Part shown: in pieces, positions 4,504 to 32,525 of the stretch
Layout: each line of letters starts with the position of its first letter
How positions within the stretch are numbered: the stretch's first letter is position 1
DNA from: an uncultured Ruminiclostridium sp.
Lineage (GTDB): Bacteria; Bacillota; Clostridia; Oscillospirales; Ruminococcaceae
Assembly (NCBI GenBank): GCA_947594425.1
Contig: CANQED010000003.1
Location: 143,793-207,792 of the forward strand
Direction: 5' to 3'
Length of the DNA stretch: 64,000 bases
Notes under the pieces: model-generated
Told to the model about the DNA's origin: nothing
Databases searched by the model: none
Seen by the model: the letters and a program-made list of their open reading frames with translations, nothing else
Position numbers and translations under genes: made by a program

Positions 4504-7500
4504 ATGATAACCTTGCTTTTGGGACAATCGGGCGGAGGAAAGAGCCGCGAGATATATAAGCGGCTGTCCGCGGCAAGCGGCGACGCGCTGTTTTTCGTGC
4601 CCGATCAATTTATGTTTGAAGCGGAAAAGAAGATATGCGAGATGTCGGGCGGCAGGGCGACTAATATCAAGGTCGCGGGCTTTTCTTCTTTATCCGAGGA
4701 GATACTTAAAAAATACGCGCCGCGCAAGACCTACGCGGACAACTCCGCAAAGCTGATAATCATGATGCGGGTACTGCGCGCGCTCAGCGGCACGCTTAAA
4801 TATTACACCATTGATACTGTCGGTAAAAAGGGCTTTGCCGAGCTTATGCTTGACACATTAGGCAGGTTGAAGAGCGCGGGGGTCACCCCCGAGCGGCTGG
4901 ATGATTTTGCCCCTAAGACAGATGAAGCAGATCTGACCGAGCTCGGCGACAAGCTGAACGACCTGTCGACGATATATCGGCTGTACAATAAGCAGCTTAC
5001 GCAAATATACGACGACAGGCAGGACAATCTGCTGCTCGCCGCTAAAGAGGCTATGGCGCACGGCTGGTTTACGGGGTATGAGATATTTATTGACGGCTTT
5101 GATGATTTTACGGGGTCGCAGCTCGAATTTTTACGGGTCGCGGTGACTGCCTCGCGCGGCTGTACGGCGGCGTTTACTACCTGTAAGGACGACAAGCAGG
5201 ACTGCTTTTATAAGGTAAACGCGGCGCGCCGCGAATTTGAGCGTATGGCGGCGAATAACGCAGAAGAACTGCGCGAAGAGTGGTACGACGAGCCTACGCG
5301 ATATGTATCTAAAGAGATAAAGTACCTGCGGGAAAGGCTCTTTTCAGAAAAGCCCGCAGCGAGAAAGCCGAGCGCTAACGGCGATATAAAGCTATTTACC
5401 GCGCCCGACACAGACAGCGAGGCGGATTTTATCGCGGCGAGCATCAAAAAGCTTATGCGCGAGGGGTATCGCTGCTCCGAGATCGCTGTACTGTGCACCG
5501 TCCCCGAGAAGTACCTCGAAACGATAAAAAGCGCGTTTTTGCGCTATGACATACCGCTCTTTGCGGATATCCCCGAGAGGATGAGCGACAAGCCGCTTAT
5601 TCGCGCGATATGCGCGTTGCTTGCGGCGGCGGACGACCCCGTGGGAGAAAAGGTCGTGCGCTTCTTAAAAAGCGGGTTCGTGCGCTTTCTTGACGAAAGC
5701 GGCAAGAGCCGACCGGTTTCTTTAGCCGAGATAAACGACATAGACAGGATAATGAAGTCCCGCGCCATGGAAAAGTACCTGTGGACGCGCCCCTTTTCGC
5801 GGTGCAAAATGCCGTATGAACAGCGCGCCGAAGAATTGAGAGAAAAGACCGTGACCCTGCTGTTAAAGCTTAAAGCGGCGCTCGACGGCTGTGCAGACGG
5901 CAGGCAAATGACCGAGCGGCTGACCGACTTTTTATTTGACGATATGGACATCTCAGCGGCAATACAGGGAAAATGTCAGGACCGCGGCACCGAGGCGCTC
6001 TTATACGACAAGGCGCTGACCGACGAATACAACGCGCTATGGGAAATGACCTCAAAGCTGCTCTCCTGCCTGTGGGAGACCACCGAGGGCGTAAGTATGA
6101 GCATAGCCGAGTACGCCTCGACGTTCGCGCTGTGCGCAAAGCAGCTGACGCTTTCGCTCCCTCCGCAGGTGCTCGACAGCGTGATATTCGGCGACCCGTC
6201 GAGGACGCGCACCGCAGGCGCGCGGGCGGTATTCGTTATCGGCGCGCAGGACGGCGCTTTCCCAAAATACGAGCAAGACGACGCGGGGCTCTTTACCGAT
6301 AAAGAAAACGCGCTGCTGTTAAGCGGGGATATAAAGCTCACCCGCGACAGCGAGACCGCCTATTCATCCGCCCTGCTTGCGGCATATAAGGCGCTGACCT
6401 TGCCAAAAGAGCGGCTCACCGTCACCCGCACCGGCACGGTCGGCGAGAGCTGTGAGGTGTTTGAGCTGATATGCGGCATGTTTGACAATATGACGGTAAA
6501 TCAGACCGCGACGCTTAGCGCGGAATACTTTTGCGAGAGTATAGGCTCTGCGAGGACGGCGGCGGCGCGCGCTAAGATAAACGACCCCGCCTTTAGCGAG
6601 ACGGTGAGCCTTGCGCTGAAAAAAGCGGGCGACGATATTTTCCCGCCGCTTATCGAGCGGGCGTACGACGGTATGTCCGAGAGCTCTTACATACACGACG
6701 CGGGCAAGGCCGCCCCGCTTATCTTTAACAGAAATATGCTCTCCCCGACGGGGATAAAGCTGCTCAACTCCTGCCGATTTGCCTACTTTATAAAATACGG
6801 GCTTAAGATAAGCGAGGACAAGCGCGCTAAGATGACCCCAGCGGGCTTTGGCGATATAGTGCATTTTGTACTCAGCGGGTGCTTTGACAGGCTGTATTCG
6901 GGCGGCAAGCCCGATAAGCTCGACGAGAGCGATATATCCGCACTAGTAGACGATATGCTTAACAAATTTATCGAGCAAAAGCTGCCTCCCGAAATATCCG
7001 CGCGATATGCGGCGCTATGCCGAGGGGTAAAGCCGCTTTGCGTTATGATGATAGGGTATATGACGAGCGAGCTTAAAAAGAGCGAGTTTCGCCCGACGTA
7101 TTTTGAGCTTTCGCTGAAAAATAAAAGGACGCTGTCGGACGGGCTTAAGGTAGAGCCGTTTATAATGAAAGTGCCGCTAACCGACGGGACGGTGCAAGAG
7201 GTCGGGATATACGGCACGGTGGACAGGATAGACCTAGCCGACGCAGATGACGGCAAAAAGTGGATACGCGTGATAGATTATAAGACGGGCGAGCAGGATA
7301 TGTCACTTAAAAAAGTATACTACGGGCTGGATCTGCAGCTGCTGCTGTATCTGTTTACCCTGTGCGCAAACAATACCGAGCTAATGCCCTCGGCGGCTAA
7401 TTACTACCCCGCTGGCGCGTCGCCCTTTAAAGAGGCGGAGAGCGAGCCGAGCGAGGACGATATGCGAGATCTGTGGCTGGACGAGCACAGCGAAAAGGGC

Positions 7501-7854: not shown

Positions 7855-10800
7855 GCAATGTAAAGTGGACGGACGAACAGGCGGCGGCTCTCGACCATAA
7901 GGACGGCGGCGCGATAGTTTCCGCCTCGGCGGGCAGCGGAAAGACCGCCGTGCTCGTCGAGCGGGTGCTTAGGCTGCTTATAAGCGGACAGGCTCAGCCG
8001 TCGGGGCTTGCGGTGGTGACCTTTACCGAAAAGGCGGCGCAAGAGCTAAAGTACAGGCTGATATTAAAGCTTAAGGAGCAGATAAACCTGCGCCCGCAGG
8101 ATGCGCAGCTGCTGCGCAGGAGAGCCGCCGAGCTGCACAACGCGAGAATATCCACCATAAGCTCGTTTTGCATACGGCTGCTTAGAGAATACTCCGACCT
8201 TACCGAGCTCTCTCCCGGGTTTACGATAATGGACGAGAACCGCGCGGATATTATGAAGGGCGCGGTGCTCGACGGGCTGCTTGAAGAATTTTACTCCACA
8301 GCAGACCAAAATACCTTAGACCTTGTCGGCGAGTATTTTATAAGAAAGGACGACAGGACGCTGTATGAGCTGATATCTAAAGCTTATTCTTTTTGCGTCA
8401 ATATGCCCGACTATGAAAAATGGCTCGATATTTGCGAATACGGTTTTTCGGACACGGTCAAAAAGAATATCGCCGAGGCCGCCGCAAATAAAGCGGACGA
8501 GGCGTTGTCCCACTATGAGATAATGAAAGCGCTTTTGCCCGAGCAGTCGGATAAGCAGCAGAAATATTTTGATAAGCTCGAAAGCAGCAAGGCGCTCGCC
8601 GTAACGCGGCTTAAAGAGAGCGGCGGCGTCATTTCCGAGGAAATAAGCGCGCTTTTCTCGACAAGAATAAACCGCGTAAACGACTGCGGCGGAGAATACG
8701 CGGCGGCGCGGGACAGATTTTTAGAGCTAGGCGAATTAGCCTTAAGCCTTGCGAAAACGGCAAAGAACGCGGACGTTGACACCGAGCGCTATCAACCCGT
8801 TCAGACGCTTACGGTGGGGCTTGTGAGAGAATTTATCTCCCGCTATAACGCCGAAAAGCGCGCGCAGAATGTCGCGGACTTTGCCGACGCGGAGCAGCAG
8901 CTTTATCACCTGCTGGTAAACCACCCCGAGGTAAAAGAAAAGATAGGGCTGCAATACATAATAGTGGACGAGTTTCAGGACAGCAACGAGATACAGTACG
9001 AGATATTCAAGCGCCTGTCCGACAACGAGAATAACCTGTACTTCGTCGGGGATATAAAGCAGTCCATATACGCCTTTAGAGGGGCGCAGCCCGAGGTGTT
9101 CGCAAGGATATGCCGTGATAAGCGCTATACGCTCTATCCGCTCAACGCTAACTTTCGCAGCAGGCAAAACGTGATAGACGGCGTAAACGCGATATTCGAC
9201 CGCATAATGACCGTAAAAAACGGCGGTGCGGACTATCGCAATACCTCTCGGCTGGTATGCTCGCGCTCGGACGGATGCGGCGGGGACGATATGACCGAGA
9301 TAATAAGCGTACTAACGACCGACGACTGCGACACTCACACAGCCGAGGCCGACTATGTCGCAATGCGCATACGCGATATGATAGACAGCGGGTATAAGGT
9401 AAAGGGCAGACCCTGCCGCGAGGGCGACTTTGCGGTGCTTATGCGCGCAAAGGACAGAGCGGATATATTCGCCGACGCTATGAAAAGGCACGGGCTGAGC
9501 TGTGAGATGAGCACGGGCGGCGGCTTTTTTGACAGCCCCGAGATAAGGTTTATGACCGCGTTTTTGACGATACTCGACGACCCGTACAGCGACAGTGAGC
9601 TTGTCACGCTGATGATGTCGCCGATATACGGCTTTAACGCCGAGGATATGGCGAGGATAAGGACGGGCACCTGCGGGGTGACGGATATATCCGCGCTTAG
9701 AGCCGACTGTGGCGAAGAGCTCTCCCGCTATTCGGCCGCATACGGCGAAAAGCCGCTGTACTCCTGCCTTATAGACGCGGCAAAGCGCGGCTTTAGTCCC
9801 GACCCGGACAGCTATCCCGCCCTATATGCGGCAAAAATGTCGGGCAAGTACGGCATAACGGACGGCGGCGATAAAAAGTGCGCGGCGCTGCTCGCCGAGC
9901 TAAAGCGGCTGAGAGGCTTTATGGAGGGGAGCACGACCTCGGCGCTGATACAAAAGATATACGACTCGACCAACGCCAAGGAGCTATTGCTTATATGCCC
10001 CGACCCCGCCGCCCGCGCCGCTAATCTCAGGACGTTTTTATCCTTAGCTAAGAGCAGCGACGAATACGGCGGACTGCCCTCGGACTTTTTAAAGACGCTG
10101 TCCGACACCGCGGAGCACGGGGCTAAGATAAAAAGCGAGCTCTCCCCCGCCGAGAGCGGAATAAAGCTTATGACCGTGCACGGCTCAAAGGGTCTGCAAT
10201 TTCCTATCTGCTTTATATCCTGCTGCGAAAAGCAATTTAATATCAGCGACGAGAAAAATCAATTTATATTAAGCGCGCGGTACGGCATATCCGGAAAGCT
10301 TGTCGACCGCAAGCATATGCTCAGCCGCCCCACCCCCGCCTATACTCTCGCAAAGCAGGAGAGCTTTGACAAGCTGTTCAGTGAAGAAATACGGCTGCTG
10401 TACGTCGCGGCGACCCGCGCGGAGGAAAAGCTTATCTTCACCGCCTCGGCGGGCAGAGTATACAATAATTCTTACCTCGGAAGGCTTAAGGCGGCGGCAG
10501 AGCTCGACCGAGCCGAATTACCCAAGGGCTACACTGCGGGCGACGTGCTGTGCTTTGATAAAAAAGTGAAATACTCACAAATTATCCATTCGTATTCGCT
10601 GACGGCGGCATATGATACCGCCGGCGCTCCCGCTATAGACCGAGATACCGCAGACCGCATAGCCGCGCAGATGACCACCCCCTACCCCGCCGCGCCATTA
10701 AGCCGTATGGCGGCGAAATTTTCCGCCACCGAGCTTGTCCGCAACCGCAGGATAACCCGCGGCAGCACCGAGCACTGCGACCTGTATATCTCGCGCCCTA

Positions 10801-28119: not shown

Positions 28120-28989
28120 ATGCAAAAGGTTAAAAAGGCGGTCATTCTCGCCGCAGGCTACGGCACGAGAGTACTGCCCGCCAGCAAGGCTATCCCTAAG
28201 GAAATGCTGAACATAGTGGACAAGCCCGCTATACAATACATTGTTGAAGAAGTGGTTAATTCGGGCATAACCGACATACTCATAGTAGTATCAAGAGGAA
28301 AGCACGAAATAGAAGATCACTTTGACCGCAAGCCCGACCTTGAGGCGCAATTGCTTAAGAGCAACAAGACCGAATTTTACAAGGTCGTGACGGATATTGC
28401 CGATATGGGCAAGGGCATACAGTATGTGCGCCAGCAGGAGCAAAACGGCACAGGCGGCGCCGTGATGTACGCTAAGAGCTTTGTCGGAGACGATCCGTTT
28501 GTAGTCGTGTACGGCGACGATGTAATTATCGGCGACGACCCCTGCACCGCTCAGTGCTGCCGCGCTTATGAAAAGTACGGCAAGGCTGTAGTCTCTATGA
28601 AAGAGGTGCCGTTTGAGCTTGTGCTCAAATACTGCACCCTTGACGTAAAGCCCGCCGAGAGCAATATCTACTATATCTCCGATATGATAGAAAAGCCCAA
28701 GCCCGAGCAGGTGATTTCTAATTTTGCCATTCTCGGACGCTGCGTGCTTCCCGCTAAGGTATTTGATATACTCGAGACCCTGCCTACCGGCGCGGGCGGA
28801 GAATATCAGCTCACCGACGCTATGAAGCAGCTCGCCGTCACCGAGGGCATGATAGGCGTAGACTTTACCGGCACGCGTTATGATATGGGCAACAAGCTCG
28901 GCATAATGAAAGCCTGCGTAGAGACCGCGCTAAAGCACCCGGAGATAGGCGACGACTTTAGGGAATATCTAAAGTCACTTGATATTTGA
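28120..28989 (+). CDS. galU: UTP--glucose-1-phosphate uridylyltransferase
   Basis: KAVILAAGYGTRVLPASKAIPKEMLNIVDKPAIQYIVEE and GGAVMYAKSFVGDDPFVVVYGDDVI. Confidence 0.95.
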   Translation: MQKVKKAVILAAGYGTRVLPASKAIPKEMLNIVDKPAIQYIVEEVVNSGITDILIVVSRGKHEIEDHFDRKPDLEAQLLKSNKTEFYKVVTDIADMGKGIQYVRQQEQNGTGGAVMYAKSFVGDDPFVVVYGDDVIIGDDPCTAQCCRAYEKYGKAVVSMKEVPFELVLKYCTLDVKPAESNIYYISDMIEKPKPEQVISNFAILGRCVLPAKVFDILETLPTGAGGEYQLTDAMKQLAVTEGMIGVDFTGTRYDMGNKLGIMKACVETALKHPEIGDDFREYLKSLDI

Positions 28990-29014
28990 GTTCATCTAAA
29001 TTAACTATTTTGCA

Positions 29015-29055
29015 AATACCACCACCCCCGCGTATACCGCGGGGGTGGTGGTATT
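29015..29055 (+). terminator. Strong hairpin terminator after galU, left boundary of the R-M island
   Basis: Perfect 18-bp stem AATACCACCACCCCCGCG / CGCGGGGGTGGTGGTATT with 5-nt loop. Confidence 0.75.
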
Positions 29056-29088
29056 ATTGATACAAGTCAAAAATTTTGCCTTTTGGTA

Positions 29089-29117
29089 TTGCATTTATTC
29101 GCGATTTGGAATATAAT
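29089..29117 (+). promoter_or_regulatory. Promoter of the R-M operon
   Basis: TTGCAT-17 bp-TATAAT upstream of ATG 29148. Confidence 0.6.
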
Positions 29118-29147: not shown

Positions 29148-30215
29148 ATGAACATAATTTCTGCTCGCGAGGCTGCAAAAAAATGGGGCATTTCACAGCG
29201 GAGAGTTGCGGTTTTGTGCGCGGAAAACCGCATTCCGGGTGCAGCCATTGTCGGGAACAGCTGGGTTATACCCGCCGACGCCGCAAAGCCTATTGACGAA
29301 CGTTCAAACCGTATTGAAAAAGCGGAAAAAAACGCAGGCCCATTTGTAAAATGGGCGGGCGGCAAAGGTCAGTTGATAAGAGAAATAGAGCAGTATTATC
29401 CGTTTGGAGACGGCAAGATTAAAAAATACGCTGAACCGTTTGTTGGCGGAGGGGCGGTTTTATTTGATATTTTGGACAAGTATGATTTGGATGAAGTATA
29501 TATAAGTGATATTAACGCTGAACTTATCAATGCTTATATTAAGATTCGTGACAATGCAGATGAAATTATAAATCTGCTGTATAGGTATCAAAACGAATAT
29601 ATTCCGCTTGAAACAGATGAGAGAAAAATCTATTATATGTCAAAAAGAGATCGGTTTAATGAGTTGAAAATAAACGGTGATACGGCGGAAAATGCAGAAA
29701 AAGCCGCGCTTATGATTTTCCTAAATAAAACCTGTTTTAACGGGCTTTACCGAGTGAATAGAAAAGGTCTTTTCAACGTGCCTATGGGAGCATATAAAAA
29801 TCCTCTCATATGCGATGAAAACAATCTTCGCGCCGTATCGGACAGACTAAAAAACGTGGAAATAGTCTGCGGAGATTACAGTAAATCGGAAAGCTTTATT
29901 GATAAGAATACTTTTGTGTATTTCGATCCGCCGTATCGCCCACTTACAGGAACGGCAAGTTTTACCGCTTATACAGAAAATCTGTTTGATGATGAAAGGC
30001 AAATTGAGCTTGCAAGATTTGTGGAAGCGATGAATAAAAAAGGCGCGAAAATTGTTGTAAGCAATTCCGACCCGAAAAATTCATCTACTGATGATAATTT
30101 TTTTGATGAACTTTATAAGGATCATCATATCAAAAGAGTGCAGGCAACAAGAATGATTAACTGTAACAGTGAATTAAGAGGGAAACTAAGCGAATTACTG
30201 ATTAGCAATTTTTAA
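29148..30215 (+). CDS. D12-class DNA adenine methyltransferase (DpnM/Dam-like) with N-terminal helix-turn-helix
   Basis: NIISAREAAKKWGISQRRVAVLCAENRIPGAAIVGNSWVIPADAAKP HTH; GPFVKWAGGKGQLIREIEQYYP, EPFVGGGAVLFDIL, FVYFDPPYRPL. Start moved to ATG 29148 after GGGGG. Confidence 0.9.
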   Translation: MNIISAREAAKKWGISQRRVAVLCAENRIPGAAIVGNSWVIPADAAKPIDERSNRIEKAEKNAGPFVKWAGGKGQLIREIEQYYPFGDGKIKKYAEPFVGGGAVLFDILDKYDLDEVYISDINAELINAYIKIRDNADEIINLLYRYQNEYIPLETDERKIYYMSKRDRFNELKINGDTAENAEKAALMIFLNKTCFNGLYRVNRKGLFNVPMGAYKNPLICDENNLRAVSDRLKNVEIVCGDYSKSESFIDKNTFVYFDPPYRPLTGTASFTAYTENLFDDERQIELARFVEAMNKKGAKIVVSNSDPKNSSTDDNFFDELYKDHHIKRVQATRMINCNSELRGKLSELLISNF

Positions 30216-30224
30216 GGAGGAAAA

Positions 30225-30827
30225 ATGATTTTCGAGTATGATGTTGCGCTATCGTTTGCAGGAGAAGACCGAGCGTTTGTTGAAGATTGTGCGGAGATTT
30301 TACGCTCATTAAGCATTAATGTGTTTTATGATAATTACGAAAAAGATGTTTTATTTGGGAAAAATTTGTATAAGTATTTAGCAGATATTTACCAAAATAG
30401 AGCTCGCTTTGCAGTTGTTTTTGTATCAAAATCATATAAGAAAAAACGTTGGACAAAACATGAACTTGAATATATTACTGCAAGGAAATTTAAGCAAGAT
30501 GAAGAATATCTTTTGCCAGTAAAGCTCGATGAAACGGAATTAGATGAAATAACTTTAACAACGGGTTATTTACAAGGTGACAGTCCGGTAAATGTTGCGA
30601 TTACAATAGCCAAGAAAATTAATCCTAAGTTGGATTTAGAATTGATGTTGTCTGAGTTGGAACATTATTTGCCTGATTATGAAATCAAAATTATCGGTAG
30701 CGAGGTGTCTTTCTATTGTGAAAAAGAAGATTTTTCTGCAAAATATCCAATTGGTTTTATGATGGAATTATACCGTCAAGATTTAATAGAGCAAGCCTTT
30801 ATATTGCCTTCTATTGTACCTAATTAA
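30225..30827 (+). CDS. TIR-domain protein
   Basis: EYDVALSFAGEDRAFVEDCAEILRSLSINVFYDNYEKDVLFGKNLYKYLADIYQNRARFAVVFVSKSYKKKRWTKHELEYITARKF; RBS AAGGAGG. Confidence 0.9.
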   Translation: MIFEYDVALSFAGEDRAFVEDCAEILRSLSINVFYDNYEKDVLFGKNLYKYLADIYQNRARFAVVFVSKSYKKKRWTKHELEYITARKFKQDEEYLLPVKLDETELDEITLTTGYLQGDSPVNVAITIAKKINPKLDLELMLSELEHYLPDYEIKIIGSEVSFYCEKEDFSAKYPIGFMMELYRQDLIEQAFILPSIVPN

Positions 30828-30842
30828 CAGAAGGAGTTATTC

Positions 30843-31703
30843 ATGACTAGAGATTTCAACTTATGGTTATCGGGATTTCGTGACAGTATAGCCGATTATG
30901 AATATTATGTTGATTTTGAGAAAGTTCATCGTAATATAGATAAAATAAAAATTGAGCTTAATATTTTAAATTCTCTTGTGGGTTCTAAAAGCATTGAGAG
31001 CGACTTTGAAAAGTTAATTAAAAAGTATCCGGAAGCACTGAAATGCATTCCGCTGTTATTGGCGGTAAGAGCAGCCGAGATATATGCTATTGACGGTGAC
31101 GGCGCATTTACTTATTCGTTTAACAAACCGAATATTTCTGTGGAACAGTATAAAACTTTTATGCACAAAACCGGACTGTTTGATTTAATGGCAAATCATA
31201 TAATCAACAATCTTGTTGACTACGCTACGGGAGTAGAAACCGGTCTTGATTCAAACGGGCGCAAAAATCGCGGCGGTCATCTGATGGAAAACTTGGTTGA
31301 AAGTTTTATAGAAAAATCCGGTTTTATTAAAGACGAAACCTATTTCAAAGAGATGTATATTCATCAAATTACAGACAAATGGGGTATTGATTTATCTGCT
31401 ATATCAAATCAAGGCAAGGCAGAAAAACGCTTTGATTTTGTTATAAAAACCGATGATATGATTTACGCCATCGAAACAAATTTCTACGGCAGCGGCGGCA
31501 GCAAACTAAACGAAACCGCCCGCAGCTACAAAACGTTAGCTTTAGAAGCCGACACTATAGACGGATTTACATTCGTATGGTTTACCGACGGTAAAGGCTG
31601 GGCAAGCGCACGTAATAATCTTGAAGAAACATTTGATGTTATGGAGCACATTTATAATATAAGGGATCTGGAAAATGGAATAATGAGCGAGGTTTTCAGA
31701 TAA
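30843..31703 (+). CDS. Type II restriction endonuclease, DpnII/MboI family (predicted GATC)
   Basis: GLDSNGRKNRGGHLMENLVESFI, KRFDFVIKTDDMIYAIETNFYGSGGSKLNETARSYKTL; resembles R.DpnII; flanked by methyltransferases. Confidence 0.88.
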   Translation: MTRDFNLWLSGFRDSIADYEYYVDFEKVHRNIDKIKIELNILNSLVGSKSIESDFEKLIKKYPEALKCIPLLLAVRAAEIYAIDGDGAFTYSFNKPNISVEQYKTFMHKTGLFDLMANHIINNLVDYATGVETGLDSNGRKNRGGHLMENLVESFIEKSGFIKDETYFKEMYIHQITDKWGIDLSAISNQGKAEKRFDFVIKTDDMIYAIETNFYGSGGSKLNETARSYKTLALEADTIDGFTFVWFTDGKGWASARNNLEETFDVMEHIYNIRDLENGIMSEVFR

Positions 31704-32452
31704 TGTCAAGCAAAAAAATAAAAAAATGGCAGCCCGAGGATTTTGAACTTGAAATGACTACCCACTGGTCGTTCCCGAAGCGCGGGGACTGGGCTACTCA
31801 TGACGCAAAATGGCGCGGGAACTGGTCACCATACATACCGAGAAACATAATTCTGCGCTATTCAAAAGAGGGCGACACCGTCCTCGACCAGTTTGCCGGT
31901 GGGGGCACCACCCTCGTAGAGGCAAAGCTTTTAAACCGTGACATTATCGGTGTGGACTGTAACGACGATGCGCTTGCGAGATGCCGTGAAAAGATTGATT
32001 TCGACTATCCTCTCGCGCATGGAAAGGTCTATCTTTATAAAGGCGACGCTCGCGATCTGTATTTTCAGAGTGACGAATCGATCGATTTAATCTGTACTCA
32101 CCCGCCCTATGCGGACATAATTCGATACAGTGACAATATTCCGGAGGATCTGTCACGGCTGAAATTAAAGGATTTTTTAGTACAGATGAAGCCGGTTGCC
32201 GAAGAGTGCTACCGCGTTTTAAAGAAGGACAAGTTCTGCGCAATTTTGATGGGCGACACACGGCAAAAGGGCTGTATGGTGCCACTAAGCTTTGAGGTAA
32301 TGAAAATTTTCGAGAGCGCGGGATTCAAGCTGAAAGAGATAATTATTAAGGAGCAGCATAATTGCAAGGCAACGGGGTACTGGAAAACAAACAGCGTAAA
32401 GTATAACTTTTTGCTGATTGCTCATGAGTATTTGTTTGTGTTTAGGAAGTAA
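31703..32452 (+). CDS. DNA methyltransferase (N6/N4 amino class), second modification subunit
   Basis: WSFPKRGDWATHDAKWRGNWSPYIPRNIILRYSKEGDTVLDQFAGGGTTLVEAKLLNRDIIGVDCN and LICTHPPYADIIRYS; TAATG overlap with the nuclease stop. Confidence 0.88.
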   Translation: MSSKKIKKWQPEDFELEMTTHWSFPKRGDWATHDAKWRGNWSPYIPRNIILRYSKEGDTVLDQFAGGGTTLVEAKLLNRDIIGVDCNDDALARCREKIDFDYPLAHGKVYLYKGDARDLYFQSDESIDLICTHPPYADIIRYSDNIPEDLSRLKLKDFLVQMKPVAEECYRVLKKDKFCAILMGDTRQKGCMVPLSFEVMKIFESAGFKLKEIIIKEQHNCKATGYWKTNSVKYNFLLIAHEYLFVFRK

Positions 32453-32477
32453 TTTAAATACCATAATTATAAAATAT

Positions 32478-32525
32478 CGACCGACTTACCGTAATCATAC
32501 TGCAAGCCGGTCGGTTTATCTTATA
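32478..32525. terminator. Hairpin between the R-M operon and the convergent sseB gene
   Basis: CGACCGACTT ... AAGCCGGTCG imperfect stem followed by T-rich sequence. Confidence 0.55.

Follow-up and report, generated by a model that had tools for sequence, protein, structure and literature searches.

We propose that the window (the whole 64,000-nucleotide stretch analysed, G000:C3:143793-207792, from source genome G000, a Clostridia-type genome of 2.6 Mb in 43 contigs) carries a mobile GATC-type restriction-modification (R-M) operon in which accessory defence genes can be exchanged at the junction between methylase and nuclease genes, a slot occupied here by a TIR effector that would act as a second line of defence; in our judgement the case for and against this reading is evenly balanced. 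The proposal draws on features that can be read directly from the DNA: which genes are present, a single conserved promoter, coding with almost no gaps, recurrence of the arrangement in other genomes, swapping of genes in the slot, intact NADase residues in the TIR protein and purifying selection on its gene.

The operon (29148-32452, + strand) comprises four genes, encoding in order an HTH-D12 methylase, a TIR protein, a DpnII nuclease and a small methylase of the N6/N4 type; 9 nt separate the first two, 15 nt the second and third, and the last two overlap by 1 nt (Table 1). Gene calls and profile matches confirmed the gene order, common strand and tight spacing described in an earlier sequence-only reading, although the values given there (10, 16 and -1) were off by one. 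That reading had also assigned the operon its own promoter and terminators on both sides, and a promoter and two flanking hairpins were found, the upstream hairpin being without a classical T run. The match to HTH_17 at the methylase N-terminus (1.5e-4) falls under Pfam's cut-off. A sequence search with the DpnII nuclease gave no convincing solved relative, and GATC is the predicted target of both cleavage and methylation, as judged solely from the families to which the enzymes belong.

Table 1. Features of the operon in the window, and genes found in the slots of related loci
Feature	Position	Strand	Evidence or remark
Upstream operon border: terminator-like hairpin 3' of galU-type gene, perfect 18-bp stem	29015..29055	.	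-37.9 kcal/mol, z -7.1
Operon promoter: TTGCAT (29089-29094), 17-nt spacer, TATAAT (29112-29117)	29089..29117	+	conserved upstream of related HTH-MTase operons
Palindrome ATTC-N8-GAAT in promoter spacer, candidate operator for methylase HTH domain	29097..29112	.	tracks HTH-MTase loci
D12-class (Dam/DpnM-type) N6-adenine methyltransferase, putative N-terminal HTH domain (residues 1-58)	29148..30215	+	PF02086 8e-63; TIGR00571 dam 3e-83
TIR protein, 200 aa: TIR domain (~1-133) and private C-terminal domain	30225..30827	+	TIR_2 7e-15; PADLOC PDC-S66 4e-18; AbTIR relatives in PDB
E80 codon, putative catalytic glutamate (WxxxE)	30462..30464	+	aligned with AbTIR WTNYE glutamate; E208 in PMC11374754
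TIR protein C-terminal domain, residues 134-200	30624..30824	+	conserved among all R-M-linked relatives
DpnII-family restriction endonuclease	30843..31703	+	PF04556 1.4e-111 over 4-282; REase_II PDLC03548 6e-102
Second, small N6/N4-type DNA methyltransferase, 249 aa	31703..32452	+	PF01555 2e-25; PADLOC MTase_II PDLC03376 2.6e-143, full length
Terminator-like hairpin between operon and convergent SseB gene	about 32476..32515	.	z -2.7 on +, -5.7 on -
Further slot gene, 177 aa	L079:5983-6516		candidate effector
Further slot genes, 445-449 aa	L036:134-1471; L043:2361-3710		candidate effectors
Further slot genes, 178 aa	L082:3921-4457; L040:945-1481		candidate effectors

The neighbours of the operon are ordinary, with a galU-type gene (named from sequence) upstream and SseB and RecR downstream. 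GC content in operon order is 0.39, 0.32, 0.37 and 0.46 against mostly 0.48-0.60 outside, in agreement with the earlier description of the first three genes as AT-rich relative to their flanks. The last methylase (31703-32452) has a GC3 of 0.56 versus 0.26-0.36 in the other three genes, a value nearer that of the host, and it may therefore have a different history. Another contig of the same genome has a SIR2_2 gene some 6 kb from a second D12 methylase gene (G000:C11:38769-45732).

The sequence-only reading had suggested looking for TIR genes within DpnII/MboI operons elsewhere, and had allowed that the arrangement might be absent from other genomes. It is not absent: the order methylase-TIR-DpnII recurs in L014 (a goat rectum MAG) and in L016 (genome G198, from another family), with 61-86% TIR identity. 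At L015 a methylase gene is followed by a TIR gene, inside which the contig ends, and at L013 the TIR gene follows DpnII. More remote relatives (47%) were found in the GATC-type islands L017, L056 and L136 and at L018. The three islands carry a D12-DpnII fusion, a dpnA-like methylase, the small methylase and a MutH-domain protein, with the TIR gene lying outside the slot, while at L018 it follows a D12 methylase and an unrelated type II restriction endonuclease. Sau3AI, which cuts GATC, is of the MutH-domain kind. The presence of the TIR gene beside another endonuclease (L018), outside the slot (L017, L056, L136) or after DpnII (L013) implies no dedicated contact with DpnII.

TIR-led searches covered some 149, 392, 399, 51 and 234 genomes, in partly overlapping sets. 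The full-length family, consisting of the TIR domain and its own C-terminal domain of ~65 aa, was present in five whole genomes, and in 5/5 the gene lies within ~3 kb of a D12 methylase; two of them (G426 and G1080) share one island, so the five represent at most four independent contexts. Together with four further contig loci, these five genomes hold every occurrence of the family with its C-terminal domain that was found, all of them in R-M loci. Other TIR_2 matches had different C-terminal parts and mostly different contexts. Since each TIR genome carries only about one or two D12 methylase genes, this recurrence rejects chance adjacency of TIR and R-M genes. A phage-borne TIR gene was also considered and rejected, the sole matches being L013, a contig of 5 kb from faeces that bears a phage label but no annotation, and L056, an IMG/VR contig near-identical to a bacterial island. 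At L020:4791-7238 (G401), a DpnI gene (PF06044 4.5e-83) is followed by a partial small-methylase gene and a DUF1883-TIR gene, placing a second, different TIR type at a GATC-related locus. At L014, a further TIR gene of 378 aa, unrelated to the first, is found upstream of the TIR-DpnII operon in divergent orientation (L014:5306-6442).

The classical DpnII loci were correctly said in the earlier reading to be without TIR, but the larger pattern is one of cargo exchange, in which TIR is one of several alternative slot genes. In a sample of 392 genomes, 34 Clostridia genomes were DpnII-positive and three of these 34 carry the TIR gene. The backbone of HTH-methylase, DpnII and small methylase is ~70-85% conserved in nearer relatives. 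The gap between methylase and DpnII contains an Mrr_cat nuclease gene in L077 and L028, a 177-aa gene in L079, related 445-449-aa genes in L036 and L043 and an 80-aa gene in L047, and it is just 12 nt long in L078, L031 and L035. The gap between DpnII and the second methylase is variable too (L014, L077, L082, L040). L079 is the nearest methylase relative of the window: the two loci align over the methylase, at 89% nucleotide identity, up to position 30223, the alignment resumes at 30849, and between these points the window has the TIR gene where L079 has an unrelated 177-aa gene, an exact replacement that could have run in either direction. This exact swap, together with the presence of Mrr, other genes or nothing at all elsewhere, indicates that the junction of methylase and nuclease genes acts as a slot whose cargo can be exchanged. 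Phylogenetic analysis agrees with exchange. The TIR-bearing operons do not form one clade (AU test, p 1e-4 on the DpnII tree and 2e-72 on the methylase tree), so that a single vertically inherited TIR operon is rejected, and TIR presence calls for at least 5 changes, slot content for 12. The 177-aa and 445-aa slot genes gave no Pfam or PADLOC match; by their position, these and the 178-aa genes are candidate effectors.

Mobility of the operon is visible at a sister locus. The TIR operon at L016 lies between the two copies of a 612-bp direct repeat (97.7% identity; 5058-5669, 9447-10058) of a pseudouridine-synthase-like gene, and flanking direct repeats also surround the DpnII operons at L081 (613 bp, 89%) and L078 (119 bp, 91%). 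R-M insertion with long target duplication has precedent in work cited in PMC3874152 (Nobusato 2000), and the L016 repeat is, from its sequence, such a duplication. A search for a long flanking target duplication around the window operon found none. Synteny between the window and five compared congeners ends right after the galU-type gene (28989-29060), and no empty insertion site could be reconstructed. The idea that the operon was acquired, already put forward from composition, fits its low GC, its patchy distribution, the non-clade trees and the duplication at L016.

The same observations bear on a serious rival, somewhat improbable in our view, in which the TIR gene is an independent anti-phage gene without functional coupling and the mobile, self-stabilising R-M cassette merely supplies mobility and a promoter. 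The occupation of the slot by unrelated genes (TIR, Mrr, unknown) also fits passive carriage, as do the long flanking duplications that show mobility and the other complete systems that adjoin sister loci, for example GmrSD at L014 and the SIR2 and HerA genes directly 3' of the DpnII operon at L082 (G518). However, all finds of the TIR family with this C-terminal domain were in R-M loci, and in the window the gene is not just nearby but sits inside the operon, behind the methylase's promoter and with tight spacing. These latter points argue against this rival.

The TIR protein has the TIR fold (TIR_2 7e-15) and the WxxxE glutamate by which bacterial TIR NADases are recognised. In our reading of the alignments it keeps S10, D36, W76, E80 and R87, matched to S140, D167, W204, E208 and R215 of AbTIR, and four of these (D36, W76, E80 and R87) are invariant across the family. 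Mutations at the five AbTIR positions lower NADase activity (PMC11374754). The position of AbTIR R151 is E20 in the window TIR and is not conserved. The glutamate in KKRWTKHELEY that had been singled out as likely catalytic is E80, and its counterpart in the AbTIR alignment is the glutamate of the WxxxE motif. Given the match at these five residues, NADase activity of the window TIR is likely. Sequence searches of Pfam, PADLOC and PDB reported no match past the TIR domain. The C-terminal domain (134-200) is modelled as helices and three strands, with pLDDT about 82-89 over most of its length; Foldseek with its structure (three-row alignment, pLDDT 67) returned no match under E 0.001, and the TIR matches concerned the TIR part.

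The TIR gene is intact and, to judge from dN/dS values of 0.05 (window versus L014) and 0.21 (window versus L016), is under purifying selection, these values being rough because synonymous sites are near saturation. We therefore consider it very unlikely that the protein lacks activity or acts as a scaffold, or that it has been decaying since its transfer, given the intact window copy with its key NADase residues and low dN/dS. The copy at L018 is the observation that would favour such decay. This copy (L018:7982-8587, G328) has an in-frame TAA and a truncated frame, with transposase genes on both sides of the R-M locus, and is probably decaying.

The TIR domain is close to the PADLOC models PDC-S66 (1e-15 to 1e-19) and ThsB (1e-7 to 1e-11), as would be expected if the protein supplied a cyclic ADPR isomer to an effector whose gene lies elsewhere, in the manner of ThsB and ThsA in Thoeris. 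This seems unlikely to us: the operon has no SLOG-SIR2 (ThsA-type) gene, and STALD was detected in 0/5 TIR genomes, an absence that weighs little as the control was silent throughout. A Thoeris locus proper was rejected, as the operon contains no ThsA gene.

Control of the operon may lie with the methylase. A consensus promoter scan does not list the TTGCAT-17-TATAAT promoter at 29089-29117, and internal promoters in the operon showed no excess (10 versus 10.8 expected). The ATTC-N8-GAAT palindrome lies beside the -10 box in 10/14 loci with an HTH-methylase and occurs in 1/20 rows without the HTH, there elsewhere, a contrast that does not amount to a formal test because the loci are related and one was entered twice. 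Exact operator matches were lacking at L015, L035 and L040. In R-M systems, methylases can repress their own expression through an N-terminal HTH acting on an operator that overlaps the promoter (PMC3874152). The association of palindrome and methylase HTH suggests that the methylase probably represses the entire operon, including the TIR gene.

On the preferred reading, the methylase HTH would bind the promoter palindrome and repress the whole operon, and TIR output would then track the level of free methylase. The TIR protein might be triggered when the methylase is lost, by the DNA ends that DpnII produces, or by a phage protein that its C-terminal domain could sense. Once triggered, it would hydrolyse NAD+ or make a cADPR isomer and so arrest or kill the cell where restriction is insufficient, for example against phage that are modified or that inhibit the R-M enzymes. 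The sequence-only reading had likewise proposed a backup effector, which might come into play after failed restriction or DNA cutting. The probable role of the TIR protein is to halt infected cells by destroying their NAD+.

A wider version of this model is possible, though short of probable: the GATC R-M operons of Clostridia would be modular platforms, each a methylase-controlled cassette whose exchanged slot effectors (TIR, Mrr nuclease and several unknown families) all sense failure of the same R-M core, making TIR a guardian of type II R-M and the 177-, 445- and 178-aa genes new effectors. As the slot genes are mutually unrelated, passive cargo would fit them too. Most of what is known about effectors that guard restriction comes from type I loci (PrrC). 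With a TIR gene placed in a simple operon of type II, at a site of gene swapping, NAD+-based immunity would be tied to the modification status of DNA, and the slot would give a positional rule for finding more effectors. The literature searched, whose coverage is incomplete, contained no account of a TIR gene within a DpnII operon, and priority is not certain.

The classical DpnII/MboI layout is dpnM-dpnA-dpnB. Like it, the window operon combines a D12 adenine methylase with a nuclease of the DpnII family and a further methylase. It differs in that its second methylase belongs to a different small family and lies 3' of the nuclease, with no dpnA-type gene between, and in having a putative N-terminal HTH on the first methylase and an accessory slot with TIR between methylase and nuclease. 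Loci of the dpnA type exist in other sampled Clostridia (L033, L034, L037, L038, L042, L046). With the long target duplications of inserted R-M genes, the resemblance is at the sister TIR locus L016, and the window has no such repeat.

Where R-M operons have PrrC/EcoprrI or HEPN genes embedded within them, these genes are known as R-M guardians (PMC3710099, PMC12707154). The window operon shares with these a potentially self-harming effector within an R-M operon and a proposed second line when restriction is blocked, but its effector is a TIR (NAD+) and not a HEPN RNase, is without an ATPase sensor domain and is associated with type II rather than type I R-M. ThsB and PDC-S66 are its closest TIR-domain relatives among defence models, from which it differs in being short (200 aa), in its other C-terminal domain and in having no adjoining ThsA. 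With the NADases AbTIR and TcpB it shares the fold, the WxxxE glutamate and the S, D, W, E and R positions, whereas only ~100 residues align, the similarity is remote, and accessory domain and context are different. We class the locus not as Thoeris but as an R-M operon of the DpnII family, variant in its layout, with a bacterial TIR gene of putative activity.
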